This document shows, piece after piece, positions 15,637 through 59,961 of a stretch of DNA of 64,000 nt. The notes under the pieces were generated by a model. It made no database searches and was not told the DNA's origin. It saw nothing but the letters and a program-made list of their open reading frames with translations. Within the stretch, counting starts at the first letter, position 1; each line of letters opens with the position of its first letter. The translations under genes were made by a program, and so were the position numbers. The DNA lies in assembly GCA_963924555.1 (NCBI GenBank), contig OZ004581.1:7541338-7605337 (forward strand). The letters are read 5' to 3'. Origin of the DNA: Crambe crambe. Taxonomy: Eukaryota > Porifera > Demospongiae > Poecilosclerida > Crambeidae.

Positions 15637-16854
15637 CTAGCTACTGTTGTTATCCAAAGTCATCACATCTGAAACAGTCGTAGATCGTAGATGTGGTATT
15701 TGGGAAAGTTTATCACTCGAGGTCATTTGATAAGAGTCATCATTACGCTTGTTGATACAACATGCACATCTAGAGTTCCCCATTCCATTTTGTTCTGATC
15801 TTGATATGCACTCCTTCAGACAGCAGCAGCCTAGTATCATTTTCTTTAGTGGTTTTCTGACACTGCTAATGAACTTGGATTCAAGGATGGGATGGATTGT
15901 AATTTGTGAGTTGAATAAGAGAAAGCTAGTCACCACAATGAATGTAGGGATTTTTTCAAACGGAGTGAATAGTGAGATGAAAGCTATAATGACTATTGGT
16001 AACCAGGACAGAATATTAGATAAGAGGAGTGCACCAAAGACTCGTACAAGGTGAAATTGTTTTTTTAGCCGTTTCCTTTTGATTTTTTTATTGAATTTTT
16101 TGTCTTCACCGTTCATGTCTTTCATTGTTTTATTCGTGGCATATACCTCACGAATGTTCTTCTGCACAATATATATTACACCGATATTGCATAAGATTGA
16201 CAAAATCACAGGTGGACAAGACAACACTATCACCATACGAAAATAAAATTTCTTTCTTTCAGCAAAACGTACGATGCAGCTAGAAACTTGACGAATGAAT
16301 ACTATGTCTCCAAAGTCAACCATTAATGGTAAGGCTGCTATTATGGTGATAACCACCCAGGTCACCAGAAGAACAATCAGTATTCTGGGGATTGTGATCC
16401 ATTTCTCGTACCGAAGTGGTTTGTAGAGGTAGATGAATCGATCCAGTGCCATCATTGCAACTGTATAGACGGACATTACTGGGAAGAAAGTGTTGAGGAA
16501 ACCAATTCGGCATGATCCACACCTCGCAGCATCACTGTCTCCTAAAATGTATTCCCCTGCTGCTCCTATGACGATGTTCAAAGGAATGATCACCACCAAC
16601 ATCAGAAGGTCAATGATGACTAGATTCAGGAGGAGTACAATGGTGGGTTCCTTGTAGAGCTTCTCTTTGATTATGGTCACAATCACCATCAAGTTCCATG
16701 GCAGACCTATCAGGAGAAAGATGGTCTGGAACACTGCCAGCACAATCCCATTTGTTCTGTACTCTCCAAGCTCCCACACTTTATCAGTGGTGCCATTCCC
16801 ACTCATACCATTATCTGTGGCATCTTTACAAAAGTCTATGAAAGAGAAATTCAT
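15637..16854 (-). CDS. Class A rhodopsin-like GPCR (sponge array member 1)
   Basis: This is an intronless seven-pass receptor of 405 residues. TM1 about 36-62 with the PWN motif (52-54, position 1.50); TM2 about 71-96 with Asp82 (2.50); conserved Cys112/Cys115 before TM3; DRF at 138-140 in place of DRY; Trp166 in TM4; Cys193 in extracellular loop 2; TM5 about 204-230; a basic third loop (255-266); TM6 with SWLP (283-286) instead of CWLP; TM7 with HPILE (321-325) where NPxxY is usual; and a CCC cluster (343-345) suited to palmitoylation. Asn-Gly-Thr near residue 20 could be glycosylated. The cytoplasmic tail of about 60 residues is longer than in members 3, 6 and 7. Ligand unknown. It is closest to member 2, with which it shares flanking DNA. 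Confidence 0.93.
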   Translation of the reverse strand: MNFSFIDFCKDATDNGMSGNGTTDKVWELGEYRTNGIVLAVFQTIFLLIGLPWNLMVIVTIIKEKLYKEPTIVLLLNLVIIDLLMLVVIIPLNIVIGAAGEYILGDSDAARCGSCRIGFLNTFFPVMSVYTVAMMALDRFIYLYKPLRYEKWITIPRILIVLLVTWVVITIIAALPLMVDFGDIVFIRQVSSCIVRFAERKKFYFRMVIVLSCPPVILSILCNIGVIYIVQKNIREVYATNKTMKDMNGEDKKFNKKIKRKRLKKQFHLVRVFGALLLSNILSWLPIVIIAFISLFTPFEKIPTFIVVTSFLLFNSQITIHPILESKFISSVRKPLKKMILGCCCLKECISRSEQNGMGNSRCACCINKRNDDSYQMTSSDKLSQIPHLRSTTVSDVMTLDNNSS

Positions 16855-17576
16855 GTTAGCTAGGCTATTCTATACTTGAGTAGTAATTAGCTATTAATTA
16901 GCTCCGATACTGAACGCGTACTTAGCTAGGCCTAGAGATGACAGTACGCAATATTAAATTAAATTATTGTTTACATAATGGTACGTGGTTTGTTTAAACT
17001 GTTATTATTTTGACATGGGATTTAGCTATACAAACCAACCCAGCCGTAAACAGAACTCTGCATCTGAGCTGAGCATGCTGTACCTGTCCCGCCCATTTCC
17101 GTGTCTCCAATGTTACGTAACTCCGTTTAGTTCGAATTAAAATTTAATATTAATTGTCCCAATACTAATCACTGTAAATAGTCCATGCATGATCTCACCT
17201 ACACATGATAATGTATATCTACACTGCAAAAATGCCATAGACTGATGCATACACAGATGGCTTACCACTATGGCGTAACGGTATCATAGATATTGAGTTT
17301 ATGGGTTAAAAGCTTAAGATTATATGGGCATTCTGCAAGGGGATATCAGTATCAGTTATATAATTTTGACTTGCCTGCTTGCTCATTTCCAGGCATGCAT
17401 AGCATGCTGAGACAGGTTCAGTTGCTGCATTATAATATGCTTGATCGTGTTATAGCTATAATATTATATGTACTTATCATTGCAAAGGAGACATTTGAAG
17501 AATGCCTTTGGCCATGCTTTATAGCTACATTAATTGAAGCTAAAGCTACCCTCTGAGTTCACAACCTATTTGTCCC

Positions 17577-17720
17577 TTTAAGGCTTATACTGCCCATGTC
17601 TCTACTCGAGATTGGATGACACAATCCTCAGAATCTCTGTCAACATCAGGGGAGTATTTCAGGGAGATACCCTCTCCCCTCCCCTGTTTCTGATCGAATC
17701 ATCTACAGTCGGATGAAGCA
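17577..17720 (+). pseudogene. LINE (non-LTR) reverse transcriptase fragment
   Basis: A short stretch reads ISVNIRGVFQGDTLSPLLFL (about 17630-17690), the RT motif found as GVRQGDPLSPLLF in non-LTR reverse transcriptases. Downstream residues soon meet stops, and no YxDD-containing segment follows. Matching bits of the same element occur inverted at about 15240-15345, so both are debris of a LINE-derived repeat. Confidence 0.6.
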
Positions 17721-18129
17721 CACCCAAGAAAAGGCTTTGCCTTTAGGCAGGCTTCCAAACAAGATGGAAAAAATTGATCTGCCCTAACAGCTATGTTTAT
17801 GTTCTATGGGAGGAAGAAGGCTCTGAGGAGGCACCTGGCTGGTACGTAACATGCTGACATTTTGTCTGTGAATAAACCTGGGGACACTAGCTAGACACTG
17901 AAGTTCAGAAAGGGAGACTCATTGTAGAAGTTAAACTTTAATTGGGGGATATGTTGGGGACCCACAAAAGGAAATGGGAAGTGGTTCCTGATTCTCCCAC
18001 CCCCACCCAATGATATTAAGGGGCATGCTGACAACCATCATCAGGAGATTATCATTCTGGATGAAAGATACGAAGATATCTGTCTCTGGATGTACGTACG
18101 TATGATCATGCTATTCATTGCTCTACATA

Positions 18130-18285
18130 GTTGTCAACTGTCCCTATTTTAGAGGGATAGTCCCTCTTTTGTAGAGCCTGTCCCTCCGAAAATGTCAGCA
18201 TTTCTATTGTTGTCCCTCTAATAAAAAGCCTACTGCATTTCCTGGCTCTTTTGTCCCTGCTAACCAGACAGAAAGCCAAAGCTTG
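18130..18285 (+). mobile_element. hAT-like MITE end, related to the hAT element at 52.5-54.8 kb
   Basis: TAGTTGTCAACTGTCCCTATTTTAGAGGGATAGTCCC here matches, with changes, the right end of the minus-strand hAT element near 54780-54835 when that end is reverse-complemented. No coding sequence follows. It is probably a nonautonomous derivative or a truncated end. Confidence 0.55.
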
Positions 18286-18289
18286 CAAC

Positions 18290-20800: not shown

Positions 20801-20824
20801 ATTATCTACACAGACACCAACACT

Positions 20825-23800
20825 GTGCTCTGCTCATTGCTAGTGCTGCTCCTGCTGATTGTGACACAACATCTAAGGACCCTACATACCTGGCTGTCTG
20901 CGTTCTCTAATGCCCTGTCTGAGTTCCCTAATGCCACAACACTACCAATAGAGACGAGACCAACGACTCTCACCACAATGACTGCTGTGTCATCTTCTAC
21001 CCCGATATCTTCTGGTCAACAGAAAAGGCGTCGGTCTGTAAGTGATAAGAATGGTGAAGATTCTAATGGTAATGGTGGTGGTTCGAAGAGAAGGAAAACC
21101 CTTACATACCATCCTAATAGGGTACAATGCTTGCCATGTGTACTCTGGCAGCAATCTGGAAGTGATCTAAATTTGCAGCACTTACATCCACTTAAAGACT
21201 CCAGGCATGTTGGCTCAGATGAAGTTCCCTTGTCCCAGTACGCATCTTATGATGACATATGTAGTCTTTGACCTGACTAGAGATGATTGCATCTGTAAGC
21301 CTTGCTACATAGACTTCAAAAGGAAGTACAGAGAGAACCAGTGTATTCCTAGGTGGGCAAGAGTTTAAAAAGGAATATTATAGCACTAGACCCAATAGAC
21401 ACTGTATTTATTGTTGTGATGAGGAGTGTTCATGTGAGAGCATACACTTGTGGGGCCCTGATCAATGGCATGGAGACAACACATCCATTGGAACTTGGAA
21501 AAAATTTCTCACTCTTACCAGTAAAGTTGATCACGTGATCCCATTAATCACATATGTAAAGTGCATTACAGAAGTGTCCTGAAACTTAAAGAAACCCAGT
21601 CCTGCTCCATGTAAAGTGCATTACAGAAGTGTCCTGAAACTTATAGAAATCCAGTCCTGCTCCATATGTAATTCAAGTGACTCTACCTCTTGGAGCTTGG
21701 CTTGCGACGTGACCCCAACTCCACAAGACGTTGATAGGATGTTTCATTTAGAGCTCGGGTCAGTCCAGTTCTTCTCCTGGATGTGTGGACAGTGTACATT
21801 ATGTTTCAGAAATGATGTACGTATGATTACAAAACCAGCTAGCAAATGATGAAAGATCTTTGGATCCAATGACATCACATAAATCACAACTGCTATTGAA
21901 TACATTAGATTGCCTTCGAAGGGATGGGGTGATATTCACAAAAGATGTGATGGCACAGTACAAATTAGTTTTAACCAACCTCAATGTACCCCAAGCACAG
22001 CACTCTCGGCTATGTAATGCTTTTGGCAAGTATTTATCGCAATTAACTAGACTCTATAAAACATTTTCCCCCACAAGCACGTCACATCATGGAAGAGCAA
22101 TTTATGATAAAAAAAATTTAATGATTACTCACTATGTTACATATTCAATATGAGAAGAAATCCATTAGTATCGAACATTTACAAGACTTAATTAGGAATC
22201 AAATATCCATTTTCCCTTCAAGCAAACAATTTAACTATACAGACCTTATATCAAGAGAGAGTACTTCAATGGAAATTGATGGGTATTTTGACCAGGAATT
22301 GTTCAATCTTATTGACTTGGCAACACAGTCTAAAACTTCCACCAAACATGGCAGTTCACCTGCGAAAAACACGGATACAAATGATAATTGGGGTATTGTG
22401 CTTAACCATGAATCCCTCATGCTGCTTCCTTCAAACATTAAATGGCCTTCTTTGCTATGCGTATGGGCTTAGGGATAAGGGGTTCAAAGCACTAAATACC
22501 CTAGGATGTTGTTGCAGCATTGATCACATCAGCTCCCATGGAGCTTTCTGGGCGAACAAAAGGAAAGCAGTGGATCAATTAGACAGGAATCAGTCGTGGC
22601 GGTTAACCATTGATTATCTGAACTTTTATATGAAGTATGCAAAAAACTTGCCGGAGTCAGCAGATGGTTCAAACAAAATGTTAAATCTACTGACCGCACA
22701 AGTTAGCCACTCAACTTCTGATGATATGGCTGGTAGTAATAAACTCACAATGAAAAATCTTGTATTTAAGTTCATGATCACCAGTGTCCATCAGCACATC
22801 TCACCACGTCTTCAGAGCTCTATTGAAAAAAAAAGACTTTTCCATCCAAAATAACACCAACGAGAGCTACTTTTATCAGCATTTTTTGGCAGTTTGCCAT
22901 ACATGCACAGTGAAGGGGCTATCCTTAAAACCCACAGAGCACACCTCATCTTTTCTGGAAGCTGTTCAGAGCCTCATGCCACATTGGACTCCTAATAATA
23001 AAGATAATGTTGTGTATGGAACCATTGAGGAGGCATCATCCAGCAGCCTGACTGATATAGAGTCATACTTAGCCAAGGTAAAGCAAGACCTCAAAATAGG
23101 CGCAACAGGAGCTACAGTCAAAGTGCCAATAGCTGGTGACCAGCAAACATATGCTCTCATGAAAAAGCTTCAGAAAAAGAACCCAGATCACTATTCCTGG
23201 ATGGTAATCCTACATGGAGATTGGCATATGCTCCAACTTTTGGCTGAATTAATACGAGACATTCTGTGGGATGGGGGGTTCAAACAGATGTGCTCACAGT
23301 GCGGGTACAAAAAAATGCCAACCCAGTGGCAAGAAATTCACCTCTTGCTACTGGCATTGTATCAGGCACTACTGCACAAGGCAGTGGTAGTGTATCAACA
23401 ATATGAGCCTAACGGTGACTGCCGAAAGTTTTGGTCATGGCTATCCGATGTGGCTTCAGACTCAAACAAAGATGAGGTCTCAAAATTTTGGGCACCGGTT
23501 CCTTCCATTTCTTAGTGGTTACATGGGATACTTTGTTGCTGTTCGGTCAGGAAATTGGGTGCTTAGGAACTCAGCAATTAAAATGTTAACTCCCCTGCTT
23601 TTTTCATTTAACCGCTACAAATATGAAGAGCTAGCTACTACAGCCGTCATCGATTCACTTACCATTCCTGATGACATGCTCTCCCTTTTCTTGAAAGGTG
23701 GTTGGACAGTCAGTGCCAAAGGAAAACCTCACCACAACCTTGCACTGGATGAGGCCCATGAGAGCATCATCAATCTGCAGTTAAAAACAATTACATCAAA

Positions 23801-25729
23801 AAGGCCATCTCACTTCAGGACAGTAGAATTAGCTAATTTCATGTCTTACTTGGATACAGTTGTGAGGGGGGTTGAAGGACAGATGTATGCATATAGACAG
23901 CAAGAACCAGTTCAATACAGGAAGCGATATGTCTGCCAGCGGGCCACTAAAATTCAAGAGCAGCTCCAAGATATCACCCTCTATGCAAAACAGTCCGAGG
24001 ATAAAAGGCCTTTAAGAAACTTGTTTGTGGATGACAGTACTCTCGACTCAAAGTCAATCGATGATTTATTGACCAGTGAAGTTCAAGGTATACAGAGGAT
24101 GAATGGGTATATAGAAAATACTTTCCTAGTACCAACTACAGAAAAAACACCCAAGAAAATTAGCTACATTCACCAGCAGACCTTCCTCTACTCGTGAAGG
24201 GAAAAAAAGGGAGAACGAACTTACCACCATTGCCACGAATGCCATGGAATTGCTTCAAAAGAATGGCATCACTGCACAGACTTCACCATACCCTCTTGCA
24301 ATCTCACACCTCGATGGGAACATACACTCCAGTGGAAAGAGCAAGTTCTTGAACACTCTAATCAAGTCCTTGGATTTTCAGAGCGCCATATCAAGCACCT
24401 TCCCATCACACCTATGCACAGTCATAGACATGCTGTACTTCATTCATATGCCCCCACCACTCTCAGTCAACACATTCAGGGACTACTTTGAACATCTTTG
24501 GGGTCTTACAGTGGGGAAATATGCCAAACTATTTGCCCCCACCCAGATCAATTGTGCACACATCAAGAGGCAAGAGAAATCAACATGATTTCCTTGATCC
24601 AGTGATAAGGGATGATGCTACCATCCCACACAGTAATTCCTATTCTGCTCTCTTGGCAAACTCAACCTCATTCCGGAGATGCCTGCTACAGTACCTGACA
24701 GAGAATTTCGGGGATAAATCAAAAACCGTCACCAGAAACTACAACTTTTCGGTGACTATTGATTCTCCATTACTACCCTTCCTAGTCACCATCCATAGAG
24801 GCCAGAGTGAGAATAAACCCCCCAACCAGCATGGCGAGGCTGATTATGCCATATGGCATCACTGCATATGTGAAATATCCACTACCATCCTAGTCGTGTC
24901 CAGTGACACAGATACATGGGTATATGGATTGGGTTTATGTCAGCTGGGATATTTACGGGGCAAAACCATTGTGGTACAAAGAGGTAATGTGGACTCCTAT
25001 ATTAACATCACTAGGGCCACATCACTTCTGTCACAGCATCCAAAGCTGCAGCATTTGAATTTCCCAGTTTTGACATTGGTTGCCCTTTACATATTGACAG
25101 GGTGTGACTATGTCAGCGCCTTTTACAGGTACACCAAGTCTAATTTCCTTGAAACTCTGCTCAGATGCAAGTCATTTATCTGTTCAGATGGGCATCTATT
25201 TAGGATGATAAATGGAGAATTTCAATATATTAAAGAGTCTGCTTGGCTAAAACTTGTTACAGCTGTTTACTACGACAAGTTTAAGAAATTTTTTAGATCA
25301 AAAGATGTTGAACATACATACCAACTCATCACAAAACATCAGGATTCACCAGAAGCAAAGAGAATGCTATCTTCACTTCATTTCACTACCCCAACTACAG
25401 CAAATTCTGACCTTGCCTTATGGGATGATTTTATCAGGAGAGTAACTTATCATGTTCCCACAGTATCCAAATATCATGAGCACAAGTTACTGCCATCATA
25501 CCAGGCCCTTGTACTCCATGCTCAAAGAGCAAACTATGTACTGAAACTTGCCTTGAGTACTCCCTGGACCATGTCTCCATTTCTCCCCTGCTTCCTCCAG
25601 TTTGGCTGGCATGTGGACAATGACATTGTCCTAATCAAGTGGGATGACTCCACAGAAGTTCAGGAGCAGGATTCAGAATGTGAAGATGATTCAGAACCCT
25701 CAAATGCTTCAGATATCTCTGATTTTTAG
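20825..25729 (+). mobile_element. Decayed transposon-like ORF series: Cys/His N-part, DUF6589-like middle, nuclease-like C-part
   Basis: A run of consecutive open stretches on the same strand spans 4.9 kb. The N-part (20.8-21.9 kb) has a Lys/Arg-rich nuclear-signal-like patch (GGGSKRRKTLTYHPNRVQCL) and spaced Cys pairs. The middle (22.3-24.2 kb) contains WRLTIDYLNFYMKYAKNLP and, about 570 bases on, a GDWHMLQLL block; both remind me of DUF6589 proteins, which are common in animal and fungal transposable elements. The C-part (24.5-25.7 kb) has VVSSDTDTWVYGLGLCQLGY and, further on, LTGCDYVSAFY; this spacing of acidic residues resembles PIN/XPG-type nucleases. The series is interrupted in about six places, so the copy is inactive. 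No terminal repeats were identified. The superfamily is unknown to me. Confidence 0.6.
21554..21663 (+). repeat. 55-base tandem duplication inside the transposon-like element
   Basis: TGTAAAGTGCATTACAGAAG... occurs twice in tandem (about 21554-21608 and 21609-21663) with two or three differences. It is a local duplication in the decayed element. Confidence 0.8.
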
Positions 25730-26395: not shown

Positions 26396-27535
26396 TTACA
26401 ATGTATCACTCGAGGTCTTTTGACAAGAGTCATCATTACGCTTGTTGATACAACATGCACACCTAGAGTTCCGTTCTGATACAGACTCGTTTATCTTCTT
26501 CAGACAGCAGCCTAGTATCATTTTCTTTAGTGGTTTTCTAACGCTGCTAATGAACCTGGATTCAAGGATGGGATGGATTGTAATTTGTGAGTTGAATAAG
26601 AGAAAGCTAGCCACCACGATGAATGTAGGGAGATTTTCCAATGGAGTGAATAGTGAGATGAAAGTTATGATGATTATTGGTAACCAGGACAGAATATTAG
26701 ATAAGAGGAGTGCACCAAAGACTCGTACAAGGTGTAAATTTTTTTTTAGCCGTTTCTTTTTGTTTTTTTCATTGAATTCCTTGTCTTCACTATTCATAGT
26801 TTTATTCGTGGCATATACCTCACGAATGTTCTTCTGCACAATATATATTACACCGATATTGCATAAAATCAACAAAACCAGAGGTGGACAAAACAACATT
26901 ATCACCATACGAAAATAAAATCTTTCTTCAGCAAAACGTACGATGCAGCTAGAGACTTGACGAATGAATACTATGTCTCCAAAGTCAACCATTAATGGCA
27001 AGGCTGCTATTATGATGATGACTACCCAGGTCACCAGAAGAACAATAAGTATTCTGGGGATTGTGATCCATTTCTCGTATCGAAGTGGTTTGTAGAGGTA
27101 GATGAATCGATCCAGTGCCATCATTGCAACTGTATAGATGGACATTAAGGGGAAGAAAGTAGTAAGGAATCCATATTGGCATGATCCACACCTCGCAGCA
27201 TCACTGTCTCCTAAAATGTATTCCCCTGCTGCTCCTATGACGATGTTCAAGGGAATGACCACCACCAACATCAGAATGTCAAGTATGACTAGATTCAGGA
27301 GGAGTACAATGGTGGGTTCCTTGTAAAGCTTCTCTTTGATTATGGTCACAATCACCATCAAGTTCCATGGCAGACCTATCAGGAGAAAGATGGTCTGGAA
27401 CACTGCCAGCACAATCCCATTTGTTCTGTACTCTCCAAGCTCCCACACTTCATCAGTGGTGCCATTCCCACTCATACCATTCTCTGTGGAATTTTTACAG
27501 AAGGCTATGAAAGAATCAGCAGCATTGAGATTCAT
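26396..27535 (-). CDS. Class A rhodopsin-like GPCR (sponge array member 2)
   Basis: Intronless, 379 residues. Same architecture as member 1: PWN in TM1, NLVILD in TM2, ALDRF at the end of TM3, SWLP in TM6, HPILE in TM7, CC cluster after TM7. Two NGT/NST sequons lie in the N-terminus. It differs from member 1 mainly at the N-terminus, in a shorter third intracellular loop and in a shorter tail, and lacks the last 20 or so residues. The 5' and 3' flanks also match member 1, so the two are a segmental duplicate pair separated by the transposon-like element at 20.8-25.7 kb. Confidence 0.93.
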   Translation of the reverse strand: MNLNAADSFIAFCKNSTENGMSGNGTTDEVWELGEYRTNGIVLAVFQTIFLLIGLPWNLMVIVTIIKEKLYKEPTIVLLLNLVILDILMLVVVIPLNIVIGAAGEYILGDSDAARCGSCQYGFLTTFFPLMSIYTVAMMALDRFIYLYKPLRYEKWITIPRILIVLLVTWVVIIIIAALPLMVDFGDIVFIRQVSSCIVRFAEERFYFRMVIMLFCPPLVLLILCNIGVIYIVQKNIREVYATNKTMNSEDKEFNEKNKKKRLKKNLHLVRVFGALLLSNILSWLPIIIITFISLFTPLENLPTFIVVASFLLFNSQITIHPILESRFISSVRKPLKKMILGCCLKKINESVSERNSRCACCINKRNDDSCQKTSSDTL

Positions 27536-41689: not shown

Positions 41690-42736
41690 TTAAGGATTTT
41701 CAGAAATTTTTCTCTTCAGGCAACAATAACATATCATATTCTTTAGTGGTTTTCTGACATCGCTAATAAAGGTTGACTCAAGGATAGGGTGGATGGCATT
41801 TTGTGAGTTAAAACCAAGACCACTCATAATAAGAATGACAGTAGGAATGGTTTCCAATCCTGTGAATGACGAGACAAAAGATACGATCATGATGGGTAGC
41901 CATGACACTATATTGAAACAGATAAGTGCTGCAAAGACTCCTATCAGATGAAATTGTTTCTCCTGTCGTTTCTTTTTCATTTCTTCACTGAGTTCTTTAT
42001 CAAAACCTTTCAATGTTTTATTTATAGTGTAAACAGCACGAATGCTCTTCTGCACAATATAAACCACACCTATATTGCATAATATAAGCACAACTAGAGG
42101 AGGACAAGCTAGAATAAGTACCATGTGAAAGTAGAAGTCTCGAGAGCTGAAATGAACGACACAAGTTGCTAATTGAGGAGTGAATATTATTTCTCCATAG
42201 CCAAAAATTGGCATGGCTGATATCAAGAAATTAACTATCCATGCCACTAAGAGAGTGACCAATATTCTGGGGACAGTGATGATTCTATCATATTGAAGTG
42301 GCTTGTAGAAATAGAGAAATCTATCCAGTGACATCATTGCAAGTGTGAAAATTGAAGTCAAGGAAAAGAAAATAATGATAAACCCTAAATAACATGTTCT
42401 ACACCTTGCAGCATCACTGTCTCCTATAATGTATTCACCAGCTACTCCTGTGATAATATCCGAAGTAATGACCACCACCAACATCAGAAGGTCAATAAAG
42501 ACTAGATTCAGAAGGAGTATAATGGTGGGCTGCTTGTAGAGCTTCTCTTTGACTACAGTCACAATCACCATCAAGTTCCATGGCAGACCTATCAGGAGAA
42601 AGATGGTCCGGAACACTGCCAGCACAATCCCATTTGTTCTGTACTCTCCAAGCTGCCACGCTTCATCAGTCGTGCCATTCTCACTTGTACCATTCTCACA
42701 AAAAGTTATGAAAAACTCAGCAAAAGTAGAATTCAT
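41690..42736 (-). CDS. Class A rhodopsin-like GPCR (sponge array member 3)
   Basis: Intronless, 348 residues. PWN in TM1, NLVFID in TM2, SLDRFLYFYKPLQYD at the TM3/loop 2 border, SWLP in TM6, HPILE in TM7 and a CYCC cluster after TM7; the tail ends about 10 residues later. NST, NGT and a further NGT sequon lie in the first 21 residues. In loop 2 (PLQYDRIITV) it groups with member 4 rather than with members 1/2 (PLRYEKWITI) or 5-7 (PLRYNAIITV and similar), so it belongs to a third subgroup of the array. Confidence 0.93.
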   Translation of the reverse strand: MNSTFAEFFITFCENGTSENGTTDEAWQLGEYRTNGIVLAVFRTIFLLIGLPWNLMVIVTVVKEKLYKQPTIILLLNLVFIDLLMLVVVITSDIITGVAGEYIIGDSDAARCRTCYLGFIIIFFSLTSIFTLAMMSLDRFLYFYKPLQYDRIITVPRILVTLLVAWIVNFLISAMPIFGYGEIIFTPQLATCVVHFSSRDFYFHMVLILACPPLVVLILCNIGVVYIVQKSIRAVYTINKTLKGFDKELSEEMKKKRQEKQFHLIGVFAALICFNIVSWLPIMIVSFVSSFTGLETIPTVILIMSGLGFNSQNAIHPILESTFISDVRKPLKNMICYCCLKRKISENP

Positions 42737-43571: not shown

Positions 43572-44777
43572 TCACAATTTGTCGATGGTACCAGACACCA
43601 CAACATTAGAAGTATTTGCTTTTAGGGAACCACTGGATGGTGGACTTCTATCACTCTTCCTAATGCAACACACTGCATTGTAGCAAGCAGAACAATAATT
43701 CATTTCCGAATTCGACAATTTACGATCATTCCTTGAACAGAACCACAATATTGTCTTTTTGAGAGGGTTTCTGACATCGCTGATAAGTGTAGTTTCCAAG
43801 ATGGGATGAACAGTGATTTGCAATATAAATAAAATCTGAGTGATGACCAAAATGAATGTTGGAATTTTATTCACACCAATAATCAAACATAGTGGAGTTA
43901 CGATTACAAAAGGAACCCATAACACTAAATCGGCACACAGAATTGCTCCAAAAACTTGAATCAAATGAAACTGTTTTTCCTTGCGTTTCTTTTTCATTTC
44001 TTTATTGAAATCCACACTGCCCATGTCGTTTAAGGATTTGTTTGTAGCATACACAGCACGAATGTTCTTCCTTACGATGCAAACAACACCAACATTCCAC
44101 AGTATTAGCAAAACTAGGAGGGGAATAGCCAGTATAAGTATAATATAAAAATAGAACGTTCCAGCTCCGCCTGGGCCAGTAATGTCAATCATACAGATTG
44201 TAAATTGAGGTATAAACACTATATATCCGAATTTAATGCCAAATAGTGGTACAGCTGCAAATGAGAAAGTAGGTATCCATGTAACTAGGAGGGTAACCAG
44301 TATCCTTTGGAGAGTGATGATTCTATCATATTGAAGAGGTTTGTAGATGTAGAGAAATCGGTCCAGTGACATGATTACTACAGTGAGAAAGGACATGAAG
44401 TAGAACAAAGTATTGAGGAACCCGATTTTACATGTTCTACACCTCGCAGCATCACTGTCTCCTATGATGTATTCACCAGCTGCTCCAGTGATGATGCTAG
44501 AGGGAATTACCATAACCAATATTAGGAGGTCATTAATTGCAAGATTAAGCAACAGCACAATGGTGGGCTGCTTGTAAAGCTTCTCTTTGACTATGGTCAC
44601 AATCACCATCAAGTTCCATGGCAGACCTATCAGGAGAAAGATGGTCTGGAACACTGCCAGCACGATCCCACTCATTCTGTATTCTCCAAGCTCCCACACT
44701 TCATCAGTTATACTGTTGTCACTAGCATTGTCATGGCATAAGGATATGAAGGGGTCACTAGCTCTGACATCCATCAA
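43572..44777 (-). CDS. Class A rhodopsin-like GPCR (sponge array member 4)
   Basis: Intronless, 401 residues. PWN in TM1, NLAIND in TM2, SLDRFLYIYKPLQYD after TM3, LWVP in TM6 where the others have SWLP, and HPILE in TM7. Extracellular loop 2 carries a Gly-rich insert (DITGPGGAGTF). The tail of about 60 residues is Cys- and Ser-rich and longer than in member 3. It is the most divergent member after TM2, yet its N-terminus-to-TM2 block remains nearly identical to the rest. Confidence 0.92.
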   Translation of the reverse strand: MMDVRASDPFISLCHDNASDNSITDEVWELGEYRMSGIVLAVFQTIFLLIGLPWNLMVIVTIVKEKLYKQPTIVLLLNLAINDLLILVMVIPSSIITGAAGEYIIGDSDAARCRTCKIGFLNTLFYFMSFLTVVIMSLDRFLYIYKPLQYDRIITLQRILVTLLVTWIPTFSFAAVPLFGIKFGYIVFIPQFTICMIDITGPGGAGTFYFYIILILAIPLLVLLILWNVGVVCIVRKNIRAVYATNKSLNDMGSVDFNKEMKKKRKEKQFHLIQVFGAILCADLVLWVPFVIVTPLCLIIGVNKIPTFILVITQILFILQITVHPILETTLISDVRNPLKKTILWFCSRNDRKLSNSEMNYCSACYNAVCCIRKSDRSPPSSGSLKANTSNVVVSGTIDKL

Positions 44778-45341: not shown

Positions 45342-46052
45342 TAATTCAGAATAATAATTATTGTTGAATACACCAATCATAAATATTAGTGTGGCACAAT
45401 AATTATCCACACCAACCATCTGTTATGAAAATAATAATTTAGTGGATAGGCAACAGTTTATTTTCACTGTTCATAGTGTATCATGTGATAGCTAATTACG
45501 TATGCATAACAGTTACCTTAAGTAGGGTCTGCAACATGAAAAATCGATATCCTAGTTTTGCATAACTTGCACCTGAAACAGCCACACCTTCAAATCCTGG
45601 GTTTGTGATTGCTCAACAGAGAAATTCACTCGCGATGTACATTTTTGCGGTGTCAGCAAAAATGAGGTCAAGGGTCAAATTTGGAATTCAAATTTTGGTG
45701 GTTCTAAGTGTTGTGCTCACCTTGACTGCCAAGTTGCTTCAAATTGAGCTGCTATAACTCCTGAAACAGAGCCTTGGACCCCTTATTTACAAGCAGATGA
45801 GTTATCTTGGAGAGAACAATCAGCTGTGCTAGATGGGGGTCCATGAGAGGGCAATCCCTCAATGTTCAGTTGTTTGGGGCTTGGTCCAAGATATGTAATG
45901 ATGAAATCAGAATGAACCCAAGGGGTCCTTTGCCATCTGGGCAGTGTACTTCCAGTTGGTATAATAAGTGTGTGGTTAGTATCTCCCCCTTAATGGCATA
46001 TAATTGATTCCAGTTGTAGAAATGAGTGCACCAACATATCAAAACTACTCTA

Positions 46053-46805
46053 CAGGGCTGGATCCAGGGTTTTTAGATAGGTGGGATTGCAGGATTAGGA
46101 GCACAAACACTGGACCATGAGGAAAGGTGCAAGAAGGAGCATATTAGTTTTGGAGGACCCATGTTGGCTTCACTGGTAGGCTACCACTAATTAGTCGCAC
46201 AAAATCGAATCCGGTTTGTGTGCATCATGAGTGTAGGCAAAGAGATGAAGCATCCCAAAATTTGTGTTATAGCTAAGTGACACATGCAAGGTCACACCTC
46301 AAGTCATAGTTAGTATGGACCGAGTTATCTAATGTGTGACCTTGAAAAGTAAGCCAAAGTGCTCCAAAAGATATCTTTGAAAGTGACACATACAAGATTA
46401 CAGGTGTGATTGTTTAAGGAAATCACATACTCAGAAAGATATCTTTGAATGACACGTACATGGTCACAGGTGTGATCGTAAAAGGAAATCACAGTTAGTA
46501 TGTACCAAGTTATCCAATGTGTGACCTTGAAAGTGAAAACCAGTGTCATGTATACATAGATTGTTTCTTTCTTTGACCGTAGCCTTAGATGATAATTATT
46601 ATAGTAACCGCATTAGTTCCTAGTTTAGTTAACCCACACATGTAACATGTTCTCTCTTCTAATTACACTACTTTAGAGGAGAAACACAAATTATCAAAGA
46701 AAAATAGACATGGCTAAGCAAGTAGGCATGGTCAAATTGTATAATAGCTTGGGAACAAATGGGAGTTTGCAACCCCCTCAAACCCCTCCCCTGGATCCAG
46801 CTCTG
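46053..46805. mobile_element. MITE with CAGGGCTGGATCCAGGG ends, copy 1 (nested)
   Basis: The ends CAGGGCTGGATCCAGGG and CCCTGGATCCAGCTCTG are inverted. The interior has about three units of a 110-base repeat (GTGACACATGCAAGGTCACA...GAGTTATCTAATGTGTGACCTTGAAA...AAAGATATCTTTGAA). Inserted in the long foldback element. Confidence 0.75.
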
Positions 46806-47122
46806 CTCCAGGAGGCTGAGTAAGAGTCAGGCCCACATAATTTTTATAGTGTGTTCATGATGTCCATGGAGGAGAAGTGGTTCCATGGTGTTGTAATCAG
46901 GCATATGCGCACTTGCATAATAATGGTGAAACAGTTGATGGAGACATAAAAAGACTTTTAATCACCAAAAGATAAATTTACCTTGCTGAAAACAAACAAG
47001 AAAATAGTTTCCTTGTCAAAGATAAGTCTACTTCCTTTCATTTCACTCTCTGGTAAATCTACTATAGTTTTTCAACTTCTCTATTTCCTCTTGTTCCTTC
47101 ATCTTGTCATCCAAAACTCAAA

Positions 47123-47437
47123 CTAGACCTTGCATTTCCACCTGCAAATTCTTCTGGCATTAGGGATGCATTGGGGATTGGGCACATCTGAGGATACCAC
47201 CTTTTCTACAAATTTGTGTGTGTTGTATGGGTACCTCCCCCTTTCTTGTAACTGTTTGTCGATCAGTTTCTTGATTGTCAGGCCATAATAACCAAGTTCA
47301 CTAGGAAATGGCGTGGAGTGATAAGCAAGGGACAAACAAAACATGACATGCTCAACTTCACTGCTACTAGATTCATGTTTGCTATCCACAATAATGAATA
47401 TGCACATACTTTGACACAAGCATCTCGGAGGGTACAA
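47123..47437 (-). CDS. Unidentified 104-residue open frame inside the foldback element
   Basis: The minus-strand frame is moderately polar with a Lys/Gln/Arg-rich stretch (IKKLIDKQLQERGRYPYN) and several Cys residues. I recognise no family. It could be an exon of an element-encoded protein or chance. Confidence 0.2.
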   Translation of the reverse strand: MYPPRCLCQSMCIFIIVDSKHESSSSEVEHVMFCLSLAYHSTPFPSELGYYGLTIKKLIDKQLQERGRYPYNTHKFVEKVVSSDVPNPQCIPNARRICRWKCKV

Positions 47438-48382
47438 CCACAGGATCTAGGAACAGATGGGCAAAACTAGCATAGCAATATTAACCACATTCTCATTTGC
47501 ATTGCATGACTAATCTGGGGCCTATTGCTATAGTCTATTATGTGAGGGCATAGTCTAGCTGCTAGACCTTTCAAAATAATTGAAAATAGACTAGTGACAG
47601 CAATACCTCAGACCTACCTCTACACTGAGAAGTCACATTTCTAGTCCTTGGTAGCCACTGCCTTTTCAGGTACATTTGAGCAGACCCCTTCAGTTTCCCA
47701 CTTCTTATTGGAGCTTCGATCCTGTGTACAGTTCCCAAACACCAGCCTGGTCTCCCAATTTTGATATAGGGATAGACTTCTGAAAACTTAGTGGTGAACT
47801 GTTATGCCATGGACAGAACACCATGTGGTCTTGCTCAGCCAACTGGAGTAGTTTAAACAAGTGTTGATATGTTGGTACACTCATTTCTACAACTAGAATC
47901 AAAATTAAGGGGGAGTTACTAACCACACACCAACTGGAAGTACACTGCCCAGATGGCAAAGGACCCCTTGGGCTCATTCTGATTTCATCATTACATATCT
48001 TGGACCAAGCCCCAAACAACTGAACATTGAGGGATTGCCCTCTCATGGACCCCCATCTAGCACAGCTGATTGTTCCCCCATCTAGCACAGCTGATTATTC
48101 TCTCCAAGATAACTCATCTGCTTGTGAATAGGGGTCCAAGGCTCTGTTTCAGGAGTTATAGCAGCTCAATTTGAAGCAACTTGGCAGTAAAGGTGAGCAC
48201 AACACTTCGAGCCACCAAAATTTGAACCCTTGACCTCAATTTTGCTGACACCGCAAAAATGTAGGTGTGGCTGTTTAAGCTTCAAAACTAGATAATCATA
48301 TCAATTTTTCACGTTGCAGACCCTACCTCAAGGTTGCTACGTATATTTAGCAAACTGATAATTATAAAAGTATACATTTACT

Positions 48383-48490
48383 CTATACAGAGTAACCTCC
48401 AAAAGAGGACAACCTCTCTACAAAGGACAAAAGTCTGGCTGGGTCCCAAGTGTGTCCATTATTCAGTTGTTCCACTCTATGCATAAAAAG
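48383..48490. repeat. Tigger-like MITE remnant
   Basis: AGAGTAACCTCCAAAAGAGGACAACCTCTCTAC...GTGTCCATTATTCAGTTGTTCCACTCTAT resembles the ACCTCTCTAATCAGGACAC...GGTTCCACTGT remnants at 15.0 kb. Confidence 0.5.
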
Positions 48491-48965
48491 AACTCGTAAT
48501 CCTGGGGATCCTGGGGATCCTGGGAATCCTGGGGAGGGAGGAGGGAGGAAGCTATATTTACACAAGTGCATGCAAAAAAATTTCTTCCAAAGGTTATGTA
48601 GGGATGGCCCCAAATCTGGCTGGGTTTATTGCAGCCTCAAGCCCTACATTTACATCCACAGCAGCTGAAATATAGGGCTTGGTTTGATATGGGGCTGCAG
48701 TAAACCCTGCCAGATTTGGGGCCATCCCTACCTAATCTTTTTACATGTATTTGGAAGAATTTTTTGCACTCACTTGTCCCCATCCTTTTTCTTAGTGTAT
48801 TAATCATCCATAAATAAGTAGCCTACTGTACCTTTCATGCCACTACACTTCTTGTTCCCAGTGTTCTCAGGGAAAACCCTTGTTGCTAGGCAATACTATC
48901 CATTGATTCAAGAAATTGATCACCCTGTACCCAACAATAACGGCAGCAATAGCCATCGTAAAGCA

Positions 48966-49792
48966 CAGGGATGGGTCGATTTTTAGATAGGTGGGGTTGC
49001 AGGCACAAACACTGGATCATGTGAGGAAAGGTGCAAGAAGGAGCATAGCTATGTAGTATTTGGAGGACCCATGTTGGCTTCACTGGTACTCAAACTCGAA
49101 GTGACACATGCAAGGCCACACCTCAAATCACAGTTAGTATACGCACTGAGTTATCTAATGTGTGACCTTGAAAATGTAAGCCAAAGTGCAAAAGATCTCT
49201 TTGAAGTGACATACGTATGTGCACAGTCACAGGTGTGGTCATACAAGAAAATTACAATTAGTATGCACTGAGTTATCTAATGTGTGACCTTGAAAATGTA
49301 AGCCAACGTGCTCCAAAAGATATCTTTGAAGTGATATGTGCAAGGTCACAGGTGTGATTATTAAGGAAATCACAGTTGGTATGCACTGAGTTATCCAATG
49401 TAAAATTAATACAAACTGATGTACTCTGAAAGATATCTTTGAAGTGACACGTGCAAGGTCACAAGTGTGATCATAAAAGGAAATCATGCACCAAGTTATC
49501 CGATATGTGACCTTGAAAGTGAAAGCCAAAATGGATGTGTCATGTATACATAACTACATAGCTAGTACGTAGATTGTTTCTTTCTTTGATTAGATGATAT
49601 ATACCACATTAGTTCCTAGTTTAGTTAACCCACACTTCTCTCTAATTACACTAGTACTTTAGAGGAGAAACACAAGTTGTCAAAGAATAATAGACATGGC
49701 TAAGCAAGTAGACATGGTCAAATTGCATTTTCATTTTATAATAGCTTGGGAACAAAAAGGAGGCCTCAACTCCACCCCTGGATCCAGCCCTG
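48966..49792. mobile_element. MITE with CAGGGCTGGATCCAGGG-type ends, copy 2
   Basis: It has the same ends (right end CCCTGGATCCAGCCCTG, left end degraded) and interior as copy 1 at 46053-46805, with four units of the 110-base internal repeat. It lies outside the long foldback element. Confidence 0.75.
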
Positions 49793-51380: not shown

Positions 51381-51384
51381 TGGA

Positions 51385-52470
51385 GTGAAATACGTAGAAC
51401 ATACTGAGCCTATAATGATTATAAATACTACCAAGGGTTTCACACTGTTCTGCAAAGAGAATGCCAGTGAGGACTGCATAACTGATGAAGTGTGGGAGCT
51501 TGGAGAGTACAGAACAAGTGGGATTGTGCTGGCAGTGTTCCAGACCATCTTTCTCCTGATAGGTCTGCCATGGAACTTGATGGTGATTGTGACCATAGTC
51601 AAAGAGAAGCTCTACACACAACCCACCATTGTACTCCTCCTAAATCTAGTCATCATTGACCTTCTGATGTTGGTAGTGTTCATTCCTTTGAACATCGTCA
51701 TAGGAGCAGCTGGGGAATACATTTTAGGAGACAGTGATGCTGCAAGGTGTAAAACATGTGATTATGGGATCTTCAGTATTTTCTTCCCAGTAATGTCCAT
51801 CTTCACAGTGTCCATTCTCTCCTTTGATAGACTCCTCTATTTCTACAAACCTCTTCGATACAATGCAATCATCACTGTACCAAGAATACTAATGGCTCTC
51901 TTGGCACTTTGGGTACTTGACTTCTTAATAGCACTCTTATCAATGGTTGGCTTTGGACATATAATATTCGTAAGATCAATAGCATCATGTAGTTTACACT
52001 TTGGATCCACTGAGAAATCTTATTCCATCCTTTTGATAGTGATAGTAGGTGTGCCTCTGATAATACTGATAGTCTGCAATGCTTTCGTGGTGTACATAGT
52101 GCAGAAGACCATTCGGGCGGTGTACGCAGTTAACAAGAACAGTACAGGCGACAATTCCAATAAAAAGAAACGCAAAGAAAAACAGTTCCATCTGATTAAA
52201 GTCTTTGGGGCATTGCTGTGTTTCAATATAGTATCATGGCTACCCATTACTATCATATTGCTCCGAACTTTTTCCACAGGATTGAATAATACTCCTGCAG
52301 CTGTTCTGGTACCAAGTTTTCTGCTGTACATCTCTCAAACGATTATCCACCCAATCCTGGAAAGTTCATTTATTAGTGATGTCAAAAAACCATTGAAGAA
52401 AATGTTTTGTTGCTCTAAGATAAAGAGGAATTCTTCGTCAAATTTGAACTGTAGTGAGTCAATTCTATAA
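51385..52470 (+). CDS. Class A rhodopsin-like GPCR (sponge array member 5)
   Basis: Intronless; 361 residues from the first ATG. The second Met (51415, MIINTTKGF) aligns with the start of members 6 and 7 (MNTTT...F) and is the more likely start, giving 351 residues. PWN in TM1, NLVIID in TM2, SFDRLLYFYKPLRYN after TM3, SWLP in TM6, and HPILE in TM7 followed by a CC pair. From TM3 onward it is almost identical to member 6, including long runs of identical bases, so the two separated recently or have been converted. The third loop is Lys-rich. Confidence 0.93.
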   Translation: MKYVEHTEPIMIINTTKGFTLFCKENASEDCITDEVWELGEYRTSGIVLAVFQTIFLLIGLPWNLMVIVTIVKEKLYTQPTIVLLLNLVIIDLLMLVVFIPLNIVIGAAGEYILGDSDAARCKTCDYGIFSIFFPVMSIFTVSILSFDRLLYFYKPLRYNAIITVPRILMALLALWVLDFLIALLSMVGFGHIIFVRSIASCSLHFGSTEKSYSILLIVIVGVPLIILIVCNAFVVYIVQKTIRAVYAVNKNSTGDNSNKKKRKEKQFHLIKVFGALLCFNIVSWLPITIILLRTFSTGLNNTPAAVLVPSFLLYISQTIIHPILESSFISDVKKPLKKMFCCSKIKRNSSSNLNCSESIL

Positions 52471-52524
52471 CTAATAGACAAGAATACTAAAGGTAACTAC
52501 TTAAAGTTGTGAATCTACATAACC

Positions 52525-54830: not shown

Positions 54831-54834
54831 ACCT

Positions 54835-56100: not shown

Positions 56101-56112
56101 TAAGTAGCCTAA

Positions 56113-57135
56113 ATGAATACCACAACTGCTGAGGGTTTTGTGCTATTCTGTGAAGAGGATGCCAGAGAAGACAACATAACTGACGAAGTGTGGGAGCTTG
56201 GAGAATACAGAATGAGTGGGATTGTGCTGGCAGTGTTCCAGACCATCTTTCTCCTGATAGGTCTGCCATGGAACTTGATGGTGATTGTGACTATAGTCAA
56301 AGAGAAGCTCTACAAGCAACCCACCATTGTACTCCTCCTGAATCTAGTCATCATTGACCTTCTGATGTTGGTGGTTGTCATCCCCTTGAATATTGTCATA
56401 GGAGCAGCCGGCGAATACATTTTAGGAGACAGTGATGCTGCGAGGTGTGGAACATGTGATCATGGGATCCTCAGTACTTTCTTCCCAGTAATGTCCATCT
56501 TCACAGTGTCCATTCTCTCCTTTGATAGACTCCTCTATTTCTACAAACCTCTTCGATACAATGCAATCATCACTGTACCAAGAATACTAATGGCTCTCTT
56601 GGCACTTTGGGTACTTGACTTCTTAATAGCACTCTTACCAATGGTTGGCTTTGGACATATAATATTTATAAGATCAATAGCATCATGTAGTTTACACTTT
56701 GGATCCACTGAGAAATCTTATTCCATCCTTTTGATAGTGATAGTAGGTGTGCCTCTGATAATACTGATAGTCTGCAATGCTTTTGTTGTGTACATAGTGC
56801 AGAAGACCATTCGGGCGGTGTACGCAGTTAACAAGAACAGTACAGGCGACAATTCCAATAAAAAGAAATGCAAAGAAAAACAGTTCCATCTGATTAAAGT
56901 CTTTGGGGCATTGCTGTGTTTCAATATTGTATCATGGCTACCCATTACTATCATATCGCTCCGAACTTTTTCCACTGGATTGAATAATACTCCTGCAGCT
57001 GTTCTGGTACCAAGTTTTCTGCTGTATAACTCTCAAACGACTATCCACCCAATCCTGGAAAGTTCATTCATTAGTGATGTCAAAAAACCATTGAAGAATG
57101 CGTTCTGTTGCTCTAAGAGAAGAGGTTCTTCATAA
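56113..57135 (+). CDS. Class A rhodopsin-like GPCR (sponge array member 6)
   Basis: Intronless, 340 residues. It has the same layout as member 5 but a different N-terminal 25 residues (NTT sequon, acidic) and a shorter tail ending after a CCSKRRGSS stretch. SFDRLLYFYKPLRYN after TM3, SWLP in TM6, HPILE in TM7. Very high nucleotide identity to member 5 across TM3-TM7. Its 3' end resembles member 7 (RRGSS), suggesting exchange between copies. Confidence 0.93.
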   Translation: MNTTTAEGFVLFCEEDAREDNITDEVWELGEYRMSGIVLAVFQTIFLLIGLPWNLMVIVTIVKEKLYKQPTIVLLLNLVIIDLLMLVVVIPLNIVIGAAGEYILGDSDAARCGTCDHGILSTFFPVMSIFTVSILSFDRLLYFYKPLRYNAIITVPRILMALLALWVLDFLIALLPMVGFGHIIFIRSIASCSLHFGSTEKSYSILLIVIVGVPLIILIVCNAFVVYIVQKTIRAVYAVNKNSTGDNSNKKKCKEKQFHLIKVFGALLCFNIVSWLPITIISLRTFSTGLNNTPAAVLVPSFLLYNSQTTIHPILESSFISDVKKPLKNAFCCSKRRGSS

Positions 57136-57894
57136 AATTTGTTCTCTTCTGCTAAATAATTTGCTCATACTGTTTAAACAAGTTAGAGGTACTGTTCTGG
57201 TAGGTGCATGCATGCTTAAAGATTGAAACTACTAATCACATTGATATAGCAGGAGTTTTTCTTATTTCAATAGCATGCATTAATTATTTTTCATAATGGC
57301 TAAAATTATCATACAGCTGACAGAAAATGTCACTTCTGTGAATGAAGTGTTTGAAAACATGCCACTTAAGACATGCAAGACACATGACAGTGTTAAGATA
57401 TGTAGGAAGAGTCATTAAAAGGAGAATTAATGATTCTAATGACCACATCAGGAAGGTAGCTACAGTCATGTCTAGACTTATTCATTGCTGTAAATTATTC
57501 CTCCCCTTGTGGCTATATTGTACTATAAATAGAAACACTATAATAGCATAATAGCTATCTGCATTATATATGGGCAAACCCAATAGCTAATTATAATTCT
57601 GTCCACATTCATGCCTTATCAGTTTCATGACACAATTAGTGCAGAATGTACCGGAAATATGTGCATGTCCAGGTACTAGCTATACATACAGATTTCTACT
57701 CAGTTTTATGTAAAGTAAAGGAAAGGGTGTGACTAAAACACAGACCAGACAGAGATGGGTCCAGTCGTGGGAGCTGCAGCCCTTTTCTTCCTATTCTGGG
57801 CAGGTGAGAATTAAGGAATTCACGCACCTAGGAAGCTAGCTAGCTAGTTATTCAGAACCCATGCACTAACTGGAAATCAAAACAACACCCATGG

Positions 57895-58085
57895 GTGCAG
57901 AACACCATTCGAGTTGTGTACACGGTTAACAAGAACAGCACAGACGACAATTCCAATGAAAGGAAACGCAAAGAAAATAGTTTCATCTGATTCGAGTCTT
58001 TTGGGACTATCATGGCATTGCTCCGAACTTTTTCCACAAGACTGAATAATAGCTACTCCTGCACCTATTCTGGTACCAAATTACA
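57895..58085 (+). pseudogene. GPCR pseudogene fragment (TM5-TM7 part)
   Basis: A short stretch matches members 5/6 at the third intracellular loop (CAGAACACCATTCGAGTTGTG, ACAATTCCAATGAAAGG) and TM6 end (GCTCCGAACTTTTTCCAC), with a deletion and frameshifts between them. No start or N-terminal half. Confidence 0.75.
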
Positions 58086-58129
58086 ATCTCAATCTAAACA
58101 GTTAGATATAAATCAACAAAAACTGAAAT

Positions 58130-58260
58130 GACTTTGTTTTCGGTTCAAATTTGATGAAGTATTCTTATAGAGCAACAAAACATTCACTTCAATGGTTTTC
58201 TGACATCATAATGAATGCATGCAGTCTCCAGGATGTAGTCAGTGGATTATGGTACTGTTT
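58130..58260 (-). pseudogene. GPCR pseudogene fragment (C-terminal tail, opposite strand)
   Basis: The reverse complement contains GATGTCAGAAAACCATTGAAG followed by TTTTGTTGCTC and CTTCATCAAATTTGAACC, the post-TM7 tail of members 5-7, preceded by a corrupted TM7. It lies tail to tail with the fragment at 57895. Confidence 0.6.
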
Positions 58261-58914
58261 AGGCTCCCAGACATAATTAAGACTATTAACATAGTCCTTA
58301 GCTAATAATGTTCGAAAGTTATAGCTCTACTAAATAAATGATAGTGATAGCTACTATTTAGTAGAGCTATAGCTATAGTTATCAGATTCTGTTCCAATCT
58401 GGAACTATGTATACTAGCTACTGAGATAAAAAAAAGAAAAAAAAGAGCAAAATTTACAATAGAAAGCTGGCAGCTTTAGCTATAGCTAACTTGGTAGCTA
58501 TGTACTCAATTCTTGACCATAAAACCAGCAGAGAGCTGATCACTCACTCTATCAGCTTTTTTCTTTTTTTTTTGAAATTTAAAATTAATTTTGGTTAAGA
58601 GCGAATTGATAAAGTTATATCAGTTAGCTATGACGTTTGATCAAGGTACGTAATACATTATAGCCATGGATGGAAATTCATCTTTCCAGCTCAGGGTATA
58701 GCAGTTCTGCAGCTACAGTATAGCAGTGGATTATATATCAAGTATTCTATATAGCTAAATACAAACAAAGTATTTCTGAAGGCAGCTATAAGAATGTGTA
58801 ACTTTCTTTGAACTAGCTACGTATGTAAACTACTTGAATAGTGACTAGCAGTTTCAATCTTTATAAGCATGCACCCACCCAACCTCTTATCTTTTAAAAG
58901 CATGAATTATTTAG

Positions 58915-59961
58915 CTACGTAGCAGATGAGAACGAATTTGATGAAGAACCTCTTCTGTTGGAGCAACAAAACATATTCTTCAATGGTTTTCTGATGTCAC
59001 TAATGAACAAACTTTCCAGGATTGGGTGAATTGTGATTTGAGAGTGAAACAAAAGAAAATTTGGTACCAGAACAGCTGCAGTAGTACTATTCAATCCAGT
59101 GAAGAAAGATCTCAGGGTTATGACAATGGTGGGTAGCCATGACACAATATTAAAACACACCAGTGACCCAAAGACTCGAATCAGATGGAACTGTTTTTCT
59201 TTGCGTTTCTTTTTATCGGAATTATCGCCTGTACTGTTCTTGTTAACTGCGTACACCGCCCGAATGGTCTTCTGCACTATGTACACAACGAAAGCATTGC
59301 AAACTATCAGTATTATCAGAGGCACACCTACTATCACTATCACAAGGATGGAATAAGACTTGTCAGTGCCACCAAAGTGTAGAAAACATGATGCCACTGA
59401 ACTCACAAATATTATATGTCCAAAGCCGATCGTTGGTAAGGATGCTATCAAAATATCAATCACCCAAAGCACCAAGAGAGCCATTAGTATTCTTGGTACA
59501 GTGACGATTGTGTTGTATCGAAGAGGTTTGTCGAAATAGAGGAGTCTATCGAAGGAGAGAATGGACACTGTGAAGATGGACATTATTGGGAAAAAAGTGT
59601 TGAGAATCCCATAGTAACATGTTCCACACCTTGCAGCATCATTGTCTCCTAAAATGTATTCCCCTGCTGCTCCTATGACGATGTTCAAGGGAGTGACCAC
59701 CAACAACATTAGAAGGTCAATGATGACTAGATTCAGGAGGAGTACAATGGTGGGTTGCTTGTAGAGCTTCTCTTTGACTATGGTCACAATCACAATCAAG
59801 TTCCATGGCAGACCTACCAGTAGAAAGATGGTCTGGAACACTGCCAGCACGATCCCATTTGTTCTGTACGCTCCAAGCTCCCACAATTCATCAGTGGTGC
59901 TATCTTCACTGACATTTTCTTTGCAGAACCGCAGAAAACTCTGTACAGTTGTGGTATTCAT
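58915..59961 (-). CDS. Class A rhodopsin-like GPCR (sponge array member 7)
   Basis: Intronless, 348 residues. MNTTT start, PWN in TM1, NLVIID in TM2, SFDRLLYFDKPLRYN (Asp where members 5 and 6 have Tyr), SWLP in TM6, HPILE in TM7, a CC pair and RRGSSSNS tail. It belongs to the 5/6 subgroup but is inverted relative to them. TM4 and loop 2 differ most. Confidence 0.93.
   Translation of the reverse strand: MNTTTVQSFLRFCKENVSEDSTTDELWELGAYRTNGIVLAVFQTIFLLVGLPWNLIVIVTIVKEKLYKQPTIVLLLNLVIIDLLMLLVVTPLNIVIGAAGEYILGDNDAARCGTCYYGILNTFFPIMSIFTVSILSFDRLLYFDKPLRYNTIVTVPRILMALLVLWVIDILIASLPTIGFGHIIFVSSVASCFLHFGGTDKSYSILVIVIVGVPLIILIVCNAFVVYIVQKTIRAVYAVNKNSTGDNSDKKKRKEKQFHLIRVFGSLVCFNIVSWLPTIVITLRSFFTGLNSTTAAVLVPNFLLFHSQITIHPILESLFISDIRKPLKNMFCCSNRRGSSSNSFSSAT

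Follow-up and report, generated by a model that had tools for sequence, protein, structure and literature searches.

Gene conversion is already known to make mosaics of class A G-protein-coupled receptor (GPCR) genes. In mammals, the chemokine receptor paralogues CCR2 and CCR5 undergo gene conversion, and in the Rhinolophoidea the tract reaches from part of the first transmembrane helix (TM1) to part of TM4, as described in the available portion of PMC8877049. In the mouse V1R pheromone receptor arrays, conversion was inferred from anomalous synonymous divergence, dS (PMC2644715, in the portion available), and in sponges the AqRho-A to E clusters of the rhodopsin family form a large lineage-specific class A set without clear orthologues elsewhere (PMC4302439, likewise in part). 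Here we describe seven neighbouring GPCR genes, g1 to g7, in a stretch of 64,000 nucleotides from the demosponge Crambe crambe (contig OZ004581.1, positions 7,541,338 to 7,605,337; “the window” from herein), which appear to have kept one internal segment alike by gene conversion while the rest of each gene diverged. What is new here is an array of seven genes, with two further copies outside the window, that have one segment in common. Judging by titles and the openings of abstracts, we recognised no account of this array among the papers listed, which is not a claim that it is absent from print.

As with CCR2/CCR5 in the available text of PMC8877049, class A paralogues would have swapped internal tracts and become mosaics. 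However, CCR2 and CCR5 are two genes, against seven plus two outside the window here, and their tracts in bats are described there as varying by lineage, whereas here the 5′ border is almost constant across 17 pairs of genes from different lineages. The V1R case is likewise one of GPCR arrays with conversion read from silent sites, but, as far as the available text of PMC2644715 goes, from whole-gene dS of single pairs and not from an intragenic block common to the array. The window genes resemble the AqRho set as part of a large sponge class A family, but the main text of that paper, in the form available, does not use the terms “gene conversion” or “tandem” (PMC4302439).

The seven genes are listed below, each with its matches to the Pfam domain PF00001 (7tm_1) and the putative converted block. 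Codons are numbered as in g5 unless alignment codons are stated.

15637-16854, minus strand: g1, GPCR open reading frame (ORF) of 405 amino acids, PF00001 E 2e-27; putative converted block about 16510-16788 (border fit)
26396-27535, minus strand: g2, GPCR ORF of 379 amino acids, PF00001 E 4.5e-29; putative converted block about 27179-27457 (border fit)
41690-42736, minus strand: g3, GPCR ORF of 348 amino acids, PF00001 E 2.3e-30; putative converted block about 42392-42670 (border fit)
43572-44774, minus strand: g4, GPCR ORF of 400 amino acids, PF00001 E 2.2e-27; putative converted block about 44559-44708 (codons 23-72)
51415-52470, plus strand: g5, GPCR ORF of 351 amino acids, PF00001 E 9e-27; putative converted block about 51481-51759
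56113-57135, plus strand: g6, GPCR ORF of 340 amino acids, PF00001 E 2.7e-26; putative converted block about 56179-56457
58915-59961, minus strand: g7, GPCR ORF of 348 amino acids, PF00001 E 3.2e-25; putative converted block about 59617-59895

Silent homogeneity in these genes is confined to one segment, is absent in comparisons with far relatives, and goes with mosaic gene histories. In trees of the downstream parts (the tails) there are two clear clades, g1-g2 and g5-g6-g7, with g3 and g4 as separate lineages. The lineages {g1,g2}, g3, g4 and {g5,g6,g7} give 17 between-lineage and 4 within-lineage pairs, 21 in all. Between lineages, the pooled proportion of silent differences (pS) falls from 0.62 in codons 1-22 to 0.09 in codons 23-48, and then rises through 0.22 (codons 49-80) and 0.28 (81-115) to 0.59 in codons 124-200 and 0.71 in codons 201-335. 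The outermost 22 or so codons are thus among the most divergent parts of the genes, also in amino acid-changing differences (pN 0.37). In sliding windows, pS falls to 0.07-0.10 over alignment codons 31-75 and is 0.43-0.74 once the windows begin at codon 121 or beyond, and among degenerate codons with an invariant amino acid, silent variation is found in 8 of 38 at alignment positions 30-82 and in 41 of 54 at positions 121-360.

The borders of the block were placed for each pair by a two-border fit on all nucleotide differences, with P from 200 codon shuffles (floor 0.005). The 5′ edge falls at codons 18-26 in all 17 between-lineage pairs, every one of them at P 0.005. Ten of these pairs have their 3′ edge at codons 112-115, four, all involving g4, at 65-72, two at 88-90, and one, g3-g4, at 167. 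In the within-lineage pairs (g1-g2, g5-g6, g5-g7 and g6-g7) the same fit gives other segments. The block therefore extends from just before VWELGEYR to about DAARC, with a staggered 3′ end, and is shared less by g3, in which codons 92-104 or so are partly its own sequence, and by g4, which has an additional similar patch at about codons 101-115.

Several claims of the original prediction, made from the sequence of the window, can be compared with these results. It proposed a seven-gene GPCR array, and all seven ORFs are present, intact and matched by 7tm_1; the two oligonucleotides it quoted as shared recur in all seven genes with at most one mismatch, while none of 100 shuffles matched. The low dS it expected at about codons 25-110 is found there by sliding windows, and neither uniform synonymous divergence nor low nonsynonymous divergence (dN) with normal dS is seen. 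Its near-invariant block from the N-terminus to TM2 stands for the silent sites from VWELGEYR onwards, but the first 22 or so codons lie outside it and the 3′ end is not uniform. Of its three downstream subgroups, two are clear and there is no firm third.

Tests stronger than the sliding windows tell conversion from constraint, and some of them draw on genes outside the window. The surrounding genome comprises 143 Mb in 119 contigs, and a search of it with the block DNA finds nine places of at least 90% identity, namely the seven genes and two places that lie some 0.7 Mb from them on the same contig. One of these two, L009, is an intact gene, and in the tree its tail groups with genes of other loci on contigs C1 and C21. 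It differs from the seven genes at 5-9% of nucleotides from codon 19-23 to codon 72-80, but at 44-49% outside, and in codons 26-48 it carries window-type silent bases that are absent from its own tail clade. With 14 genes drawn from 23 aligned genes, approximately unbiased (AU) tests show that the block data reject the tail tree (0.006) and the tail data reject the block tree (6e-5). A block of this kind on the tail of another clade is expected from conversion and not from constraint. The other, L025, is a disrupted gene related to L009, with two pieces that are 89-92% identical to it; across the 36 nucleotides of codons 23-34 it differs from g5 at none and from L009 at 3, too few to carry much weight.

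Within the array, g5 and g6 hardly differ from codon 124 onwards and differ more in their first 123 codons, which suggests that the downstream part was recently copied or exchanged. Their tail pS is 0.04-0.07, against block values of 0.13 (codons 23-72) and 0.31 (codons 73-115), and they have 19 nucleotide differences in 270 positions of codons 26-115 versus 17 in 636 from codon 124 (Fisher p 0.004, for segments picked after the data were seen). As this pair is closer downstream than in the block, constraint on the block cannot produce the pattern. The four within-lineage pairs have block pS of 0.12, 0.08 and 0.22 in codons 23-48, 49-80 and 81-115, and tails of 0.15-0.17, about four times closer than between lineages. 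If silent sites of the block simply evolved more slowly, all distances would be scaled down proportionally, which fits neither g5-g6 nor the within-lineage pairs. Recombination tests point the same way: the pairwise homoplasy index (PHI) has p 2e-4 over 338 informative sites, the floor of 5000 shuffles; restricted to 37 silent third positions, it gives p 0.0014, 0.008 and 0.03 with three different window sizes. Identical runs over 530 variable sites are significant in 4 of 21 pairs, at a global P of 0.003-0.01 from 300 shuffles, and all of these runs lie in alignment codons 73-108.

Some results weigh against conversion across the block. A GENECONV-like test of 60 silent-variable codons finds no significant tract inside the block, its only global hit being g6-g7, downstream (P 0.042); the power of a run test on silent sites is low because few of them vary in the block. 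When the tree test is limited to the seven genes, the tail tree is not rejected by codons 26-80 (AU 0.74), and codons 26-115 reject it by a narrow margin (AU 0.046). Correlations of block with tail distances are non-significant (0.26 and -0.06 for codons 23-72, 0.41 and 0.07 for codons 23-115), with the qualification that the two tail halves of the seven genes correlate with each other at just 0.45. Codons 49-80 are also relatively alike between the window and other genes of C1 and C21 (pS 0.39-0.51 versus 0.72-0.80 in tails), and, less clearly, when those other genes are compared with one another (0.45-0.62 versus 0.51-0.73). We read this as older exchange, the alternative being a slower local silent rate. 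Taken together, interlocus gene conversion across the block is well supported by the sequence comparisons.

We consider it very probable that the seven genes are old paralogues in which one segment was repeatedly copied by interlocus gene conversion while the rest diverged. Downstream, from about TM3 to TM7, they would be near silent saturation between lineages, whereas a segment of about 150-280 bp, from codon 23 or so through TM1, loop 1 and TM2 and mostly to about C112-C115, would have been copied between genes repeatedly, and also exchanged with at least one gene 0.7 Mb distant. Repair of a break in one gene with another copy as template would rewrite such short tracts. As the block is common to genes in both orientations, the pattern is better matched by conversion without crossover than by unequal crossing over. 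Both the process and the cause of its place are what we infer from these patterns. The place may be set mainly by enough surviving DNA similarity for recombination, together with tolerance of the exchange, while exchange in the N-terminal tip and in TM3-TM7, which probably set ligand specificity, would be blocked by divergence or purged by selection. Protein conservation in codons 49-80, the most conserved part between the window and far genes (pN 0.18), would leave the DNA similar enough for pairing, but codons 23-48 have the lowest pS in spite of a pN of 0.40, so similarity kept by the protein can be only part of the story.

That protein constraint on TM1-TM2 alone explains the similarity is extremely improbable. 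Amino acid divergence is indeed low in codons 49-80 between arrays too (0.41-0.44 in the tails), but such constraint predicts normal silent divergence, contrary to what is seen in codons 23-48, which moreover are not specially constrained between arrays. The silent sites refute it as sole cause, and it stays a contributing factor. That purifying selection at the DNA or RNA level (through a regulatory element, codon usage or RNA structure) keeps the silent sites of the block alike, with no exchange, is highly improbable. The GC content of third codon positions (GC3) in codons 26-48 is high, at 0.62-0.67 in the seven genes and 0.60 in L009, and codons 49-80 are relatively alike even against other C1 and C21 copies. 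However, high GC3 is also found in several genes of contig C10 and so does not discriminate; for the same reason (it is raised in g1-g7 and L009, but also for example in L030 and L031) it does not serve as a fingerprint of GC-biased conversion. In every segment, pS is 0.67-0.83 when the window genes are compared with five far genes (35 pairs) and 0.64-0.82 when the far genes are compared with one another; for 370 C10 gene pairs whose tail pS exceeds 0.35, the means of eight segments all lie at 0.73-0.82. The absence of a dip in these pairs leads us to reject a family-wide nucleotide constraint on the block. Against selection on the DNA or RNA of the block also stand L009, with window-type silent bases that its tail clade lacks, and g5-g6 and the other within-lineage pairs, which are no less divergent in codons 23-48 than distant pairs are. 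In the window, no match to an Rfam family attains the gathering score, and no tRNAs were found.

A single round of fusion, in which different tails received the same 5′ module and no exchange followed, would account for L009, with its window-type block and the tail of another clade. It is nevertheless quite improbable, since the staggered 3′ borders (65-72, 79-80, 88-90 and 112-115) imply several events, and the strong differences between lineages in the first 22 or so codons are unlike one common 5′ module. The g5-g6, L009 and far-gene comparisons thus support repeated gene conversion over protein constraint alone, as originally proposed. A further possibility is a form of this explanation, in which conversion would be positioned by selection, a shared TM1-TM2 face (for example in receptor pairing) favouring homogenised copies. 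A precedent is the CCR2/CCR5 heterodimer proposal of Vazquez-Salat et al., which is described together with later doubts in the available portion of PMC8877049; dimerisation is also discussed in PMC2720389, where, in the part available, mosaic evolution of gene pairs is described in which structural or binding regions stay alike and other domains diverge. One gene of a second array, L034, is similarly mosaic. Yet later CCR2/CCR5 studies do not find conversion restricted to structural domains (PMC8877049, same portion), and a homology-limited process could yield the same pattern without such selection. This version appears rather unlikely. The almost constant 5′ edge and staggered 3′ ends would fit polar conversion from near the 5′ end as well as selection for a shared face. 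Flanking duplications were rejected as drivers: in blastn comparisons of the genes with 1.5 kb flanks, non-coding matches are all below about 230 bp, including the relic at 57895 described below, and self-comparison of the window (matches of at least 120 bp, E up to 1e-20) finds no repeat uniting the seven genes except the genes themselves.

Other arrays of the genome show partly similar patterns. L034, at 3.8 Mb on C10, has pS of 0.00-0.17 against L028, L029, L032 and L033 in codons 26-115, versus 0.46-0.82 in codons 1-25 and 0.42-0.66 in codons 116-286; these four comparisons are effectively a single one. Against L035, which is incomplete there, pS is 0.46 in codons 49-80. L034 appears to be a mosaic similar to the window genes, with silent sequence of its own. 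Against conversion of its block, the L034 comparisons are also alike at the 3′ end (pS 0.15-0.21) and the two-border fit (versus L028, L032 and L033) selects the divergent middle, codons 121-251, so that replacement of the middle accounts for L034 equally well. The array at 1.0 Mb (L047, L048 and L050-L054) has a mean pS of 0.10 in codons 42-115, a start selected after inspection of the data, versus 0.17 and 0.29 downstream; codons 26-48 are not low in most pairs, and in six fitted pairs the low segment begins at codons 27-41 and ends at 113-330. For L040 versus L041, L042 and L044, pS is 0.28-0.49 across codons 1-115, rising to 0.59-0.72 further downstream. No particular dip is visible between near-identical copies on C21 and C1. 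C1_6842, C21a and C1_3420 have mutual pS of 0.26 in codons 23-48 versus 0.43-0.59 elsewhere, and may have exchanged this part among themselves. It is doubtful that conversion repeatedly rewrites nearly the same TM1-TM2 cassette in more than one GPCR array of this genome, as the second array amounts to one gene, L034, with the fit on its divergent middle, and in the third the 5′ border lies elsewhere. If true, it would point to 5′-polar conversion from a fixed initiation point before TM1, or to selection for a common TM1-TM2 face.

The array belongs to a large family spread over several contigs, as the g5 protein has at least 113 matching stretches in the genome. The seven ORFs (340-405 codons, at 15637-59961, with g1-g4 and g7 on the minus and g5 and g6 on the plus strand) match 7tm_1 with E 3e-25 to 2e-30 and 89-106 bits, against a curated cut-off of 30.5. 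The sole gene searched against the PDB, g5, matches 324 sequences, the best 60 of which we take to be class A receptors such as rhodopsins. Class A receptors are usually marked by N in TM1 and D in TM2, by DRY, by W-x-P in TM6 and by NPxxY in TM7, and our TM labels are assigned from such motifs. GLPWN, LNLxxxD, D-R-F/L and W-L/V-P can be read in all seven genes, while TM7 has HPILE at the place of the usual class A NPxxY. HPILE is also found in the C1 and C21 relatives, and HPILQ in L033 of C10. The relatives L015 and L016 (C1, 6.86-6.88 Mb) and L017 (C10, 1.04 Mb) have very long ORFs of 605, 621 and 653 amino acids, unlike the window genes. A decayed fragment of a GPCR gene sits between g6 and g7:

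57895-58082, plus strand: relic of a further GPCR copy, matching g5/g6 codons 229-302 or so only, with a stop and without the block

Elsewhere in the window, an ORF group at 22279-25729 on the plus strand, between g1 and g2, includes two with DUF6589 matches under the cut-off, and is perhaps a decayed mobile element. Diverged repeats, 71-85% identical and partly inverted, lie at 45638-49792 between g4 and g5. A direct repeat, 74-88% identical, occurs at 1561-2474 and 10701-11489, the second copy being just upstream of a DUF716 gene at 11776.

If the proposed explanation holds, the array would be a clear natural case of receptors that keep one part common by copying while other parts diversify. 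Whole-gene trees of such families would mix histories and need to be read with caution. The array also offers a testable contrast between mechanical causes, i.e. surviving homology and polarity, and selection for a shared receptor face.

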